From Collimonas humicola (GTDB taxonomy: Bacteria > Pseudomonadota > Gammaproteobacteria > Burkholderiales > Burkholderiaceae_D): a stretch of 64,000 nt of DNA. The notes below the pieces were generated by a model. That model saw only the letters and a program-made list of their open reading frames with translations. It was not told where the DNA came from and did not search any database. The DNA is taken from assembly GCF_018304945.1 (NCBI RefSeq), contig NZ_JAGQEE010000005.1, positions 186,001 to 250,000 on the forward strand, given 5' to 3'. The position numbers and the translations under genes are program-made. Below are positions 60,008 to 64,000 of the stretch, one piece after another; position 1 is the first letter of the stretch, and each line of letters begins with the position of its first letter.

Positions 60008-60454
60008 ATGAAAGACAGCATGGATAAAGTAGAAATTTTTGCCGACGGCGCTTGCAAGGGCAATCCTGGCACCGGCGGCTGGGGTGCGCTGCTGGTAGCC
60101 GACGGCAAGGAAAAAGAATTGTTCGGCGGCGAGCGCAACACCACCAACAACCGCATGGAGCTGAAAGCCGTGATCGAGGCGCTGACCGCCTTGACCCGCC
60201 CTTGCGAAGTCATCGTCTTTACCGACAGCCAGTACGTGCAAAAAGGCATCAGCGAATGGATACATGGCTGGAAAGCGCGCGGCTGGAAAACCGCGGCGCG
60301 CGAACCGGTGAAAAACGTCGACCTGTGGCAGGCGCTGGACGCCGCCCAGGCCCGGCACAAGATCGAATGGCGCTGGGTCAAGGGGCATGCAGGCCATGTG
60401 GGCAACGAGCGCGCCGACCAGCTCGCCAATCGCGGCGTCACCACGGTCGTATAA
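60008..60454 (+). CDS. rnhA: Ribonuclease HI
   Basis: 148-residue enzyme degrading the RNA strand of RNA-DNA hybrids. The catalytic acids are D13 ([14 protein letters not shown]), E51 ([10 protein letters not shown]), D73 ([10 protein letters not shown]) and D137 ([12 protein letters not shown]); the basic handle [13 protein letters not shown] is present. An alternative ATG at 60020 would shorten it by four residues and fits E. coli length equally. Normally dnaQ lies beside rnhA in enterobacteria and several betaproteobacteria; here it is replaced by a gene-poor tract and a PKS gene. Confidence 0.97.
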
Positions 60455-61305: not shown

Positions 61306-61454
61306 CGTGGGTACTCGCTGCTCTGGCTGATGCCAGAATTTTACCGAATCAGACCAATGGGTGGCGGGCTTTTAGAGGTGGCCCATAGGGCGGCAGACCA
61401 GGATGCGGACTGCCTCGATCGCGACTGAAGTTCCCTTTTATCCTCCCGTAAGAG

Positions 61455-61514
61455 TTTACAGGTGACACCTGTAAAGGTTTACAGGTGGTTTTCCTTGGGG
61501 AAGAGAAATATTAT
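61455..61514 (+). promoter_or_regulatory. Lux box (LuxR-type operator) with candidate promoter
   Basis: ACCTGTAAAGGTTTACAGGT at 61467-61486 has the 7-bp arms ACCTGTA and TACAGGT, identical to the arms of the Vibrio fischeri lux box, with a 6-bp centre. The symmetry extends to 10-bp arms over 61466-61487. A further half-site TTTACAGGTG lies at 61455-61464, so three half-sites alternate. TATTAT at 61509-61514 is a fair -10; transcription from about 61521 would place the box centre near -44, the usual position for LuxR activation. It is 158 bp upstream of the PKS start. Binding by an AHL-LuxR-type activator is inference. Confidence 0.75.
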
Positions 61515-61645
61515 CTCCCGGCAGAAATAACTCTTTGACATTTTTAACATTGAAAGTCATTTGATTTAATGGCCAGAGCGTAATGCTATCGCAATAAATT
61601 CATGATTTCAGGCTGCCGCGTAGCCACTTGATTGGGGTTCATAGT

Positions 61646-64000
61646 ATGGATGTTGCTGTTATCGGAATCGCTTGTCGTTTTCCAGGTGCAAATGATCACC
61701 ATATGTTCTGGGCCAATCTGGCCGAACGCAAAGCCAGTATTTCTGTTGTGCCTTCCAGCCGCTGGGATTGGAAAGCCTACTGGGGCGATTCTCGAACCAA
61801 AATCAATAAAAGCTTGAGCAAATGGGGTGGATTCATCGAGCGCGTGGATGCGTTCGACAACCAGTTCTTCGGCGTGCTGCCCAAGGTCGCCCAAAGCATG
61901 GATCCACAGCAGCGCATCATGCTTGAGCTAACCTGGTCATGCCTGGAGGACGCCGGTATTCCGCCATCGCAGCTACGTGGCAGAAAGGTCGGCGTCATCG
62001 TCGGCGTATTCAATCACGACTACAAGGAATTGCAGGAGCGCGACGAGCCATTGATCGAGGCGCACAATTCCACCGGCACGGCGACCGCCATGATTGCCAA
62101 TCGCGTGTCGCACTATTTCGATTTTCGCGGTCCCAGCATTCCGATTGACACGGCGTGCTCCAGTTCGCTCAACGCCATCCACAGCGCAATCCAGGCGATG
62201 GAATTCGGCGATTGCGAGATGGCGCTGGCCGGCGGCATCAATCTGCTGCTGACGCCTACGCGGCATATCTCGTTTTCCAAGATGGGCATGCTGTCGCCGA
62301 CCGGAACCTGCAAAACCTTCGATGACAGTGCCGACGGCTACGTACGCGGAGAAGGCGCCGGCCTGCTGTTGCTTAAGCCACTGGATAAGGCGCTGTCAGA
62401 CGGCGACTCTATATATGGTGTAATAAAAGGCAGCGCCGTCAATCATTGCGGCGCAACCTATACGCTGACCTATCCCAGCCCACGGGCTCAGGCGGAGGTC
62501 ATTGTTGCTGCGCATGAACGGGCAGGCATTCCGGTAGATAGCGTCGGCTATATTGAAGCGCATGGAACGGGAACGCCGAAGGGGGACCCTATAGAATTCG
62601 AGGGTTTGCTGACGGCCTTTCAGACCCTGGCCGATAAGCAAGACATCCATTTGGGTAATGCGTTCTGCGGCTTGAGTTCGGTCAAGACCAATATCGGTCA
62701 TCTGGAGGCGGCAGCGGGGGTTGCGGGAGCGATCAAGGTCTTGATGGCGTTCAAGCATCGCACCTTGCCGGCGCTGCACGACTTTACAACACTGAATTCG
62801 AAGATTTCGATCAACGAAACGCCGTTCTATATTCTCGGCGAGACGCGCGAGTGGGCCCAGGTAGATAAGAATAAGGATCAACCTCGCCGGGCGGGCGTCA
62901 GTTCGTTTGGCTTCGGCGGCACCAACGCCCACCTGGTGCTGGAAGAAGCGCCGCCATCGCAACATTCGCAGAAAGCACTGCCGTCGCAGTCGAAGCGTCC
63001 ATCATATCTGATCGCCCTGTCTGCGAAGAGCAGCGAAGCGCTGCTGCAAAAGCAGAAAGATATCTCGGCTTGGTTGCGCGATGACGCCGGGCAGAGCGAT
63101 CTGCTGGATATCAGCGCTACCTTGTTGACAAGACGCGAGCATTTCCAGCATCGGTTCTCCTGCATTGCAGCTAATGTCCAGGAATTGATCGAAAAGCTCG
63201 GCCAGTCCATCGCCATTGATGCGGGCGCCAGCAGCGTAACGGGCCAGGGCCAGAAGTCGCCCGCACCCGATGCGGTTCAGGCGGGACAGAAGTTGCTCAA
63301 ACAGCTCAGCGCCAAGCCAAGATTGAAGGGCGCAAAATACCCGGCGGCGCTGCAACAGCTCGCAGACCTGTATGCCGAAGGCGTCGACCTGCCGTGGGTT
63401 GCGCTGTTCGGAGAGGCTGTTGTAAAGCCTGTTTCGTTACCGACTTATCCCTTCTCGCGCGATAGCTTCTGGATCGCGGAAAGTGACGACAGGGGCGATG
63501 CGGACCAGCGGCAGGCGCTGCATCCGGCGTTGCAACGTAACGTTTCCATGATTGGAACGCAACGTTATGCATCGACCTTTACCGGCAAGGAATTTTTCCT
63601 GGCCGACCATGTGATCAAGACCCAGCCGGTGTTACCGGGCGTGGTGTATCTGGAGATGGTCCGGGCCGCGATTGTCGATGCGCTAGGCGCAGACGCCGGG
63701 TCGGTACAACTTTCCGATGTGCTGTGGATGCGGCCGCTTGAGGTCGGAGGCGAGCCGGTTTCGGTGCATGTGAAGTTGTGGCCTGAGAGCGCCGACTCCG
63801 CCGGCGTTGGCCGACAGGGCGGCACCGGCCTGGCGTTCCAGGTGACGAGCGCCGAGATCGGCGCACTCCCGCAGATCTATTGTCGCGGTAGCGTCGACAT
63901 CGTGTCCGCGGCAAATCTCGCGGCGCTCGATATTGCAGCGCTGAAACGAGCTTGTGACGGACAGGTGTATTCGGCAGAGCAGTGCTATCGATCGCTGGCA
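61646..64000 (+). CDS. Modular polyketide synthase, trans-AT type (KS-DH...), 3' end outside window
   Basis: 785 codons are visible and the frame runs off the window. GGGG 8 bp before the ATG at 61646 is a possible ribosome binding site. Residues 1-430 are a ketosynthase starting at once with MDVAVIGIACRFPGAN; the catalytic triad is C171 (DTACSSSLNA), H306 (EAHGTGTPKGDP) and H352 (KTNIGHLEAAAG), so it should condense. A KS-linker (LPTYPFSRDSFW near 610) leads straight to a dehydratase with H655 in FFLADHVIKTQPVLPG. No acyltransferase lies between, the hallmark of trans-AT PKSs that borrow a separate AT. The DH motif HxxxGxxxxP has Thr for Gly. Product unknown. Confidence 0.93.
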   Translation, partial: MDVAVIGIACRFPGANDHHMFWANLAERKASISVVPSSRWDWKAYWGDSRTKINKSLSKWGGFIERVDAFDNQFFGVLPKVAQSMDPQQRIMLELTWSCLEDAGIPPSQLRGRKVGVIVGVFNHDYKELQERDEPLIEAHNSTGTATAMIANRVSHYFDFRGPSIPIDTACSSSLNAIHSAIQAMEFGDCEMALAGGINLLLTPTRHISFSKMGMLSPTGTCKTFDDSADGYVRGEGAGLLLLKPLDKALSDGDSIYGVIKGSAVNHCGATYTLTYPSPRAQAEVIVAAHERAGIPVDSVGYIEAHGTGTPKGDPIEFEGLLTAFQTLADKQDIHLGNAFCGLSSVKTNIGHLEAAAGVAGAIKVLMAFKHRTLPALHDFTTLNSKISINETPFYILGETREWAQVDKNKDQPRRAGVSSFGFGGTNAHLVLEEAPPSQHSQKALPSQSKRPSYLIALSAKSSEALLQKQKDISAWLRDDAGQSDLLDISATLLTRREHFQHRFSCIAANVQELIEKLGQSIAIDAGASSVTGQGQKSPAPDAVQAGQKLLKQLSAKPRLKGAKYPAALQQLADLYAEGVDLPWVALFGEAVVKPVSLPTYPFSRDSFWIAESDDRGDADQRQALHPALQRNVSMIGTQRYASTFTGKEFFLADHVIKTQPVLPGVVYLEMVRAAIVDALGADAGSVQLSDVLWMRPLEVGGEPVSVHVKLWPESADSAGVGRQGGTGLAFQVTSAEIGALPQIYCRGSVDIVSAANLAALDIAALKRACDGQVYSAEQCYRSLA

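Follow-up and report, generated by a model that had tools for sequence, protein, structure and literature searches.

We analysed a 64,000-nucleotide stretch of the genome of the soil bacterium Collimonas humicola (GCF_018304945.1, contig NZ_JAGQEE010000005.1, positions 186,001 to 250,000; hereafter the window), at the right end of which a gene for a trans-acyltransferase polyketide synthase (trans-AT PKS) begins. This gene opens a cluster that also encodes a nonribosomal peptide synthetase (NRPS), and it is preceded by a palindrome resembling the lux box, the site read by LuxR-type regulators that bind acyl-homoserine lactones (AHLs). An earlier reading of the window (the original prediction) took the palindrome for a near-ideal lux box that places the polyketide under quorum-sensing control. 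The locus was compared with its counterpart in Collimonas arenae Cal35 (hereafter Cal35). The features of the locus are listed below; coordinates on its contig, designated C20, equal the window position plus 186000.

60008–60454, plus strand: rnhA, the left flank of the genomic island
61444–61463, plus strand: imperfect tandem copy resembling a lux box, TCCCGTAAGAGTTTACAGGT, 15/18 arm positions; absent in Cal35
61466–61487, plus strand: lux box, CACCTGTAAA-GG-TTTACAGGTG, predicted site of a LuxR–AHL dimer
61509–61514, plus strand: TATTAT, predicted −10 hexamer, 22 bp past the box; the Cal35 equivalent is TACTAT
61521–61645, plus strand: predicted 5′ untranslated leader, taken to start 7 bases past the −10 hexamer
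61646–64000, plus strand: start of the trans-AT PKS gene, 5456 aa from the ATG at 61646; the gene runs to C20:264016

Sequence and spacing of the box

The element CACCTGTAAAGGTTTACAGGTG at 61466–61487 has 10-bp arms that are exact reverse complements around a GG centre. Compared with the classical lux box ACCTGTAGGATCGTACAGGT, which lies upstream of Vibrio fischeri luxI, it is identical at 14 of 20 bases, and both 7-base arms are exact; the description of the site as a near-ideal lux box with canonical arms, whose inverted repeat extends without mismatch to 10-bp arms, is thus correct. The two elements share the 20-bp palindrome with its lux-type arms and differ in the central six bases, and the C. 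humicola genome adds a second, predicted target, the PKS operon, located on a different contig from luxI. The string ACCTGTAGGATCGTACAGGT is used as the 20-bp lux box in PMC4444344.

No second place within three mismatches of the box exists in the window, and none arose in 100 shuffles of it. Under a scoring matrix built solely from five distinct luxI boxes found in the genus, with PKS sites excluded, the PKS-promoter box scores 31.7 bits, as against 14.4 bits for the runner-up non-luxI site in 157,835 scanned bases of the C. humicola genome and a top score of 20.5 bits in a simulation of 29.6 million positions.

The original prediction also named the TATTAT hexamer as a −10 element that puts the box at about −44. 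The hexamer and its 22-bp distance from the box are there, and the position depends on the start: if transcription begins 7 bases past the hexamer, near 61521, the centre of the box would fall near −44.5. The 22-bp gap fits the location near −42 expected of a lux box upstream of a −10 element. The spacing itself recurs, as a −10-like hexamer lies 22 bp past the box in both PKS promoters (TATTAT, TACTAT) and in nine of the ten luxI promoters found in the genus, where it reads CAAAAT or GAAAAT in eight cases and GAGAAT in one; the tenth luxI promoter (genome G197) has CAAAAT after a gap of 21 bp. The luxI-promoter hexamers are weak, with 4/6 matches.

The tandem copy at 61444–61463, missed by the original prediction, is 85% identical to the main box over 20 nt, at 23-bp spacing. 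Within 61444–61487, TTTACAGGTG occurs twice on the plus strand and once inverted, giving three half-sites, and the main box shares part of its sequence with a second inverted repeat, an everted one (23-nt arms, 78% complementary); Cal35 lacks this arrangement.

The luxI/luxR pair and the distribution of the box

The whole genome (5,624,756 bases in 24 contigs) was searched for partner genes. The AHL-synthase family has one match in it (C11:629495–630016, minus strand) and the autoinducer-binding family three, the strongest of which (C11:630513–630926) adjoins the synthase. The corresponding genes are:

C11:629351–630049, minus strand: luxI, 232 aa from the likely ATG; the sole recognised LuxI
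C11:630276–630986, minus strand: luxR, 236 aa, adjoining luxI and in the same direction

LuxR has both an AHL-binding and a helix-turn-helix (HTH) domain, aligns nearly over its full length with RhlR, QscR and SdiA and from residue 29 with LasR, and carries W62, Y66, D75, P76, W90 and G113, presumably the six hallmark, invariant positions of AHL-binding LuxR proteins. The partner had been expected either downstream in the cluster or elsewhere in the genome; the whole-genome family searches rule against either gene being part of the cluster and place both elsewhere, on contig C11. The original prediction was to fall if the genome held no LuxR-family regulator, and with such a regulator and luxI both present it does not fall on that count.

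Between luxR and luxI, at C11:630112–630131, lies AACTGTAAAGGTTTACAGTT, the sole other place in the genome within three mismatches of the box, so that the same element stands in the luxI promoter of this very genome, and further strong copies, for which the original prediction had proposed a scan, are otherwise absent from it. This luxI-promoter box lay outside the knowledge on which the prediction was made and hence serves as an independent test of it, which it passed.

LuxI matches were found in 10 of the 15 genomes of the genus, and a box precedes the luxI ATG by 79–83 bp in all ten luxI genes, at 14–17 of 18 arm positions (best site within 300 bp). Six of these matches (L082, L084–L088) were flagged by the family search as containing one stop codon; read from the ATG, they are open frames of 183–187 aa. 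The remaining five genomes (G061, G083, G102, G143, G164), one of them of 1.7 Mb, gave no LuxI-family match; an autoinducer gene was present in all six genomes studied in PMC4690342. In a sample of 294 genomes of the family, AMCTGTAAAGGTTTACAGKT occurs within two mismatches in 15, and its reversed control in three. There are 18 distinct sites in this sample, ten of which adjoin luxI (nine in this genus, one in another) and two of which precede PKS genes. Within the genus, a site within two mismatches is present in nine of the ten luxI carriers and in none of the five luxI-less genomes (one-sided p 0.002, indicative only, since the species are related).

Taking these data together, we consider it highly probable that 61466–61487 is a functional lux box at which LuxR with its AHL would activate the putative PKS/NRPS operon, and very probably dense populations turn the cluster on. 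This reading is favoured because only two places in the genome lie within three mismatches of the box, namely, the PKS promoter and the luxR–luxI intergenic region; because the Cal35 box is identical at 20 of 20 bases, with TACTAT at the same spacing, while the sequences upstream of it are unrelated in the two genomes; and because every one of the 11 exact copies of AMCTGTMAANNTTKACAGKT in the 15 genus genomes stands in a luxI or PKS promoter. It is further favoured by the homologous solA gene of the solanimycin cluster in Dickeya solani, which, like the quorum control predicted here, depends on an AHL synthase: its transcription is not appreciable in an expI mutant and is restored by 1 µM N-(3-oxohexanoyl)-homoserine lactone (OHHL) (PMC9765074). 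With the same box at the same spacing in the luxI promoter, quorum-sensing control of the polyketide is supported as a prediction; the observation behind it was right and its reading is well supported, unusually so for one drawn from sequence alone.

LuxR activators of this type act from a site immediately upstream of promoters whose −35 element is poor. In the proposed mechanism, the AHL made at high cell density by the single recognised LuxI would bind the adjacent LuxR, the LuxR dimer would occupy the palindrome, centred some 44 bp ahead of the transcription start, and the dimer would recruit RNA polymerase to a promoter that lacks a good −35 element, so that the solanimycin-type PKS/NRPS operon would be activated together with luxI itself.

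Most tested Collimonas strains make AHLs, and luxI-like and luxR genes are present in all producers (PMC11288634); in the available part of that study, neither a lux box nor a PKS target of this LuxI/LuxR system is named. The accessible text of PMC12542777 likewise contains nothing on the box or the PKS, and our literature search, which extended to neither the Collimonas regulon paper (FEMS Microbiol Ecol 2022, fiac100) nor the Cal35 antifungal paper (PMC8313283), returned no report of the box or of quorum control of the cluster in the text it covered; a prior mention in either paper is possible.

Evidence against the reading and alternative explanations

Several observations weigh against activation by LuxR at this site. 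Around the promoter, no consensus sigma-70 pair was found in 61350–61700, an interval in which just 0.5 would be expected by chance, and the leader, counted from the inferred start, is long (about 125 nt). The genome encodes two more LuxR-type proteins with an autoinducer-binding domain (C11:1416256, C18:522876), which are possible binders of the box. Among 50 related loci outside the genus, none has the box within 600 bp upstream, the best site reaching 12 of 18 arm positions; of these 50 loci, which represent 48 distinct upstream stretches, 37 are informative on promoters and the other 13 fall within longer frames. For six of the 18 distinct sites of the family sample, all of them outside this genus, neither LuxI nor LuxR gave a match within about 1.5 kb. 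Finally, in addition to the exact matches, the 15 genus genomes contain 23 one-mismatch palindromes, compared with two sites for the control pattern at up to one mismatch, and three of the 23 are in two of the five genomes without luxI (G083, G061). Because such palindromes occur in luxI-less genomes, another regulator may read similar sites. The result for the 50 loci also means that the lux box is no property of the PKS family as a whole, and this idea was rejected.

The two additional LuxR-type proteins underlie the best surviving alternative, that an orphan LuxR (C11:1416256 or the weaker C18:522876) acts at the box, the cluster then answering another, possibly foreign, signal. Both orphans score above the autoinducer-binding cut-off, and the one at C11:1416256 (236 aa) aligns with LuxR from end to end at 40% identity. 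However, the box is that of the luxI promoter, and its strong copies track the presence of luxI in the genus, so we regard control by an orphan as unlikely.

It is less probable still that the box represses, with AHL-free LuxR blocking the PKS promoter in the manner of EsaR. LuxR-family repressors of the EsaR type do exist, but esaR and esaI are convergent, whereas luxR and luxI are codirectional here. Lux boxes located between the −35 and −10 elements repress (PMC4444344), but the present box is 22 bp upstream of the −10 hexamer, not over it, and the spacing at luxI is the same.

The excess of one-mismatch sites over the control, with three of them in G083 and G061, could also be taken to mean that the palindrome is the operator of an unrelated dimeric regulator, or that it arose by chance. 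Against this, none of the 23 sites is an exact copy, while every exact copy is in a luxI or PKS promoter; the best simulated score is 20.5 bits as against 31.7 bits for the PKS box, and Cal35 keeps the box entire. We consider this reading very improbable. An intrinsic terminator or other hairpin, which the terminator scan does flag here (one found, 0.4 expected in shuffles), is the least credible explanation and was rejected, as the palindrome is followed merely by GTTTTCC, the luxI copy has no T run, the nearest recognised plus-strand gene upstream (rnhA) ends about 1 kb away, and the sequence is conserved beyond what pairing alone requires.

Turning back to activation by LuxR, the one-mismatch sites may also point to a wide quorum regulon in the genus, though three of them belong to luxI-less genomes. 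Gene neighbours were viewed by eye at 11 weaker sites in three genomes, a subset of all weaker sites. One weaker one-mismatch box (L141, C1:2590316 in Cal35) is found between divergently transcribed type VI secretion genes (tssK/tssB-like, by eye), in their promoter region, and two others (L103, C11:1086612 in the window's genome, and L146, G208:C1:5040550) adjoin a MASE1-like gene in two species, with a gene resembling chitin-active lytic polysaccharide monooxygenases on the opposite side of the box in G208; these three loci are possible second-tier quorum targets. The window's genome also has two paralogous autotransporter-like genes (by eye; L094, C23:211293, and L095, C23:215044); in each, a CTGTNAANNTTGACAG palindrome covers the ribosome-binding region, some 20 bp ahead of the start codon.

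The cluster, its island and its relatives

The first 442 PKS residues have matches at E 1e-150 or better in at least five of 288 sampled family genomes, and since the five best candidates were scored per genome, carriers in the genus number at least two of 15. Apart from the window's own genome, the carriers are Cal35 (95% identity), one genome at 71% and two at 54–55%. DNA similarity to Cal35 (88% over 36 kb) sets in at 61463 of the window, leaving 4 bp between this point and the 20-bp box.

The cluster is inserted next to rnhA, which was found in 14 of the 15 genus genomes. In 11 of the 13 others it has dnaQ as a neighbour, at a distance of up to about 150 bp, and in the remaining two no dnaQ was seen within the fetched stretch; in the window's genome, rnhA and dnaQ are about 44 kb apart (C20:246454 to 290395). 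Cal35 has the rnhA–dnaQ pair intact at C1:3711900 and the cluster elsewhere, at C1:2034910. Judged by this arrangement, the cluster is an island. The box is to be assigned to the cluster and not to the insertion site, because the similarity to Cal35 spans the box while the Cal35 cluster sits away from an undisturbed rnhA–dnaQ pair. At the right edge of the island, adjoining dnaQ, there is a tyrosine-recombinase-like gene (C20:288931–290244; weak XerD/XerC matches, below the NCBIfam cut-offs), and a tRNA-Val gene is located beyond dnaQ (C20:291205–291281).

Pfam identifies KS, DH, KR and T domains in the PKS and gives no match for an acyltransferase (AT) domain. The PKS gene is followed by genes for a reductase, a BioF/serine-palmitoyltransferase-like oxoamine synthase, a small carrier protein (recognised by eye) and a tandem acyltransferase, and then for an NRPS of 5462 aa, an ABC ATPase with a permease, and a phosphopantetheinyl transferase (PPTase). 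In its layout the front half resembles solA–E of the D. solani cluster for the antifungal solanimycin (sol). The PKS has the order KS-DH-KR-T-KS-DH-T-T-KS-DH-KR-T-KS, obtained from Pfam content (best stretch per family) together with the translation read by eye and compared with Table 1 of PMC9765074, and the SolB-type reductase, SolC-type oxoamine synthase, acyl carrier protein (ACP; by eye only) and tandem AT come in the solanimycin order. The same table sets Collimonas arenae LT85_1869, LT85_1870 and LT85_1874 beside SolA, SolB and SolE.

The back half is different: in place of SolF–L, the cluster encodes an NRPS of another kind, together with the ABC exporter and the PPTase. The SolF–H NRPS set, the P450 SolI and the MATE exporter SolL that mark solanimycin proper are absent from the cluster, to which the search was confined, and no gap between the PKS and PPTase genes fits a P450 or MATE gene. 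Because of this difference, the product should be a relative of solanimycin with another peptide, presumably built on the polyene-derived amino-hydroxy acyl start unit of the solanimycin group (PMC10204066). Carenaemins were considered as the product and rejected, as PMC13291983 assigns them to a different Cal35 cluster, of the polyunsaturated fatty acid (PUFA)-synthase type. The NRPS itself differs between the two Collimonas genomes (6516 aa in Cal35, C1:2055927–2075477, vs. 5462 aa here, C20:268765–285153), and the DNA alignment breaks and overlaps at this gene, as with gain or loss of a module, which suggests an extra module in the Cal35 enzyme.

The oxoamine synthase was found in seven of eight genomes queried, that is, in all but G013. 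It is 97% identical in Cal35, 81–85% in Lysobacter, Xanthomonas and a Lysobacterales metagenome-assembled genome, 77% in Cellvibrio mixtus, 73% in Erwinia sp. ErVv1 and 74% in Rouxiella badensis. The latter two are named as sol carriers (PMC9765074) and, unlike the Collimonas cluster, have no box. As the box is missing from the related loci of other genera, among them Erwinia and Rouxiella, the wiring of AHL control in Collimonas probably differs from that in Dickeya, which was itself outside the comparison. We tentatively suggest, as a possibility somewhat short of an even chance, that a mobile island gained a lux box at its left edge, in Collimonas or in a donor, and thereby joined the host LuxI/LuxR system, AHL control in Dickeya having arisen by another route; if so, quorum control of one biosynthetic family would have been reached twice, with different wiring.

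The PKS promoter is thus a candidate target of quorum sensing in Collimonas that is specific, strong and almost without rival in the genome, and in this genus of fungus feeders its box links quorum sensing to a cluster of antifungal type. The promoter offers a clean case in which a single 22-bp element may put a mobile biosynthetic island under the cell-density control of its host, and one prediction is that the cluster could be awakened by supplying AHL.
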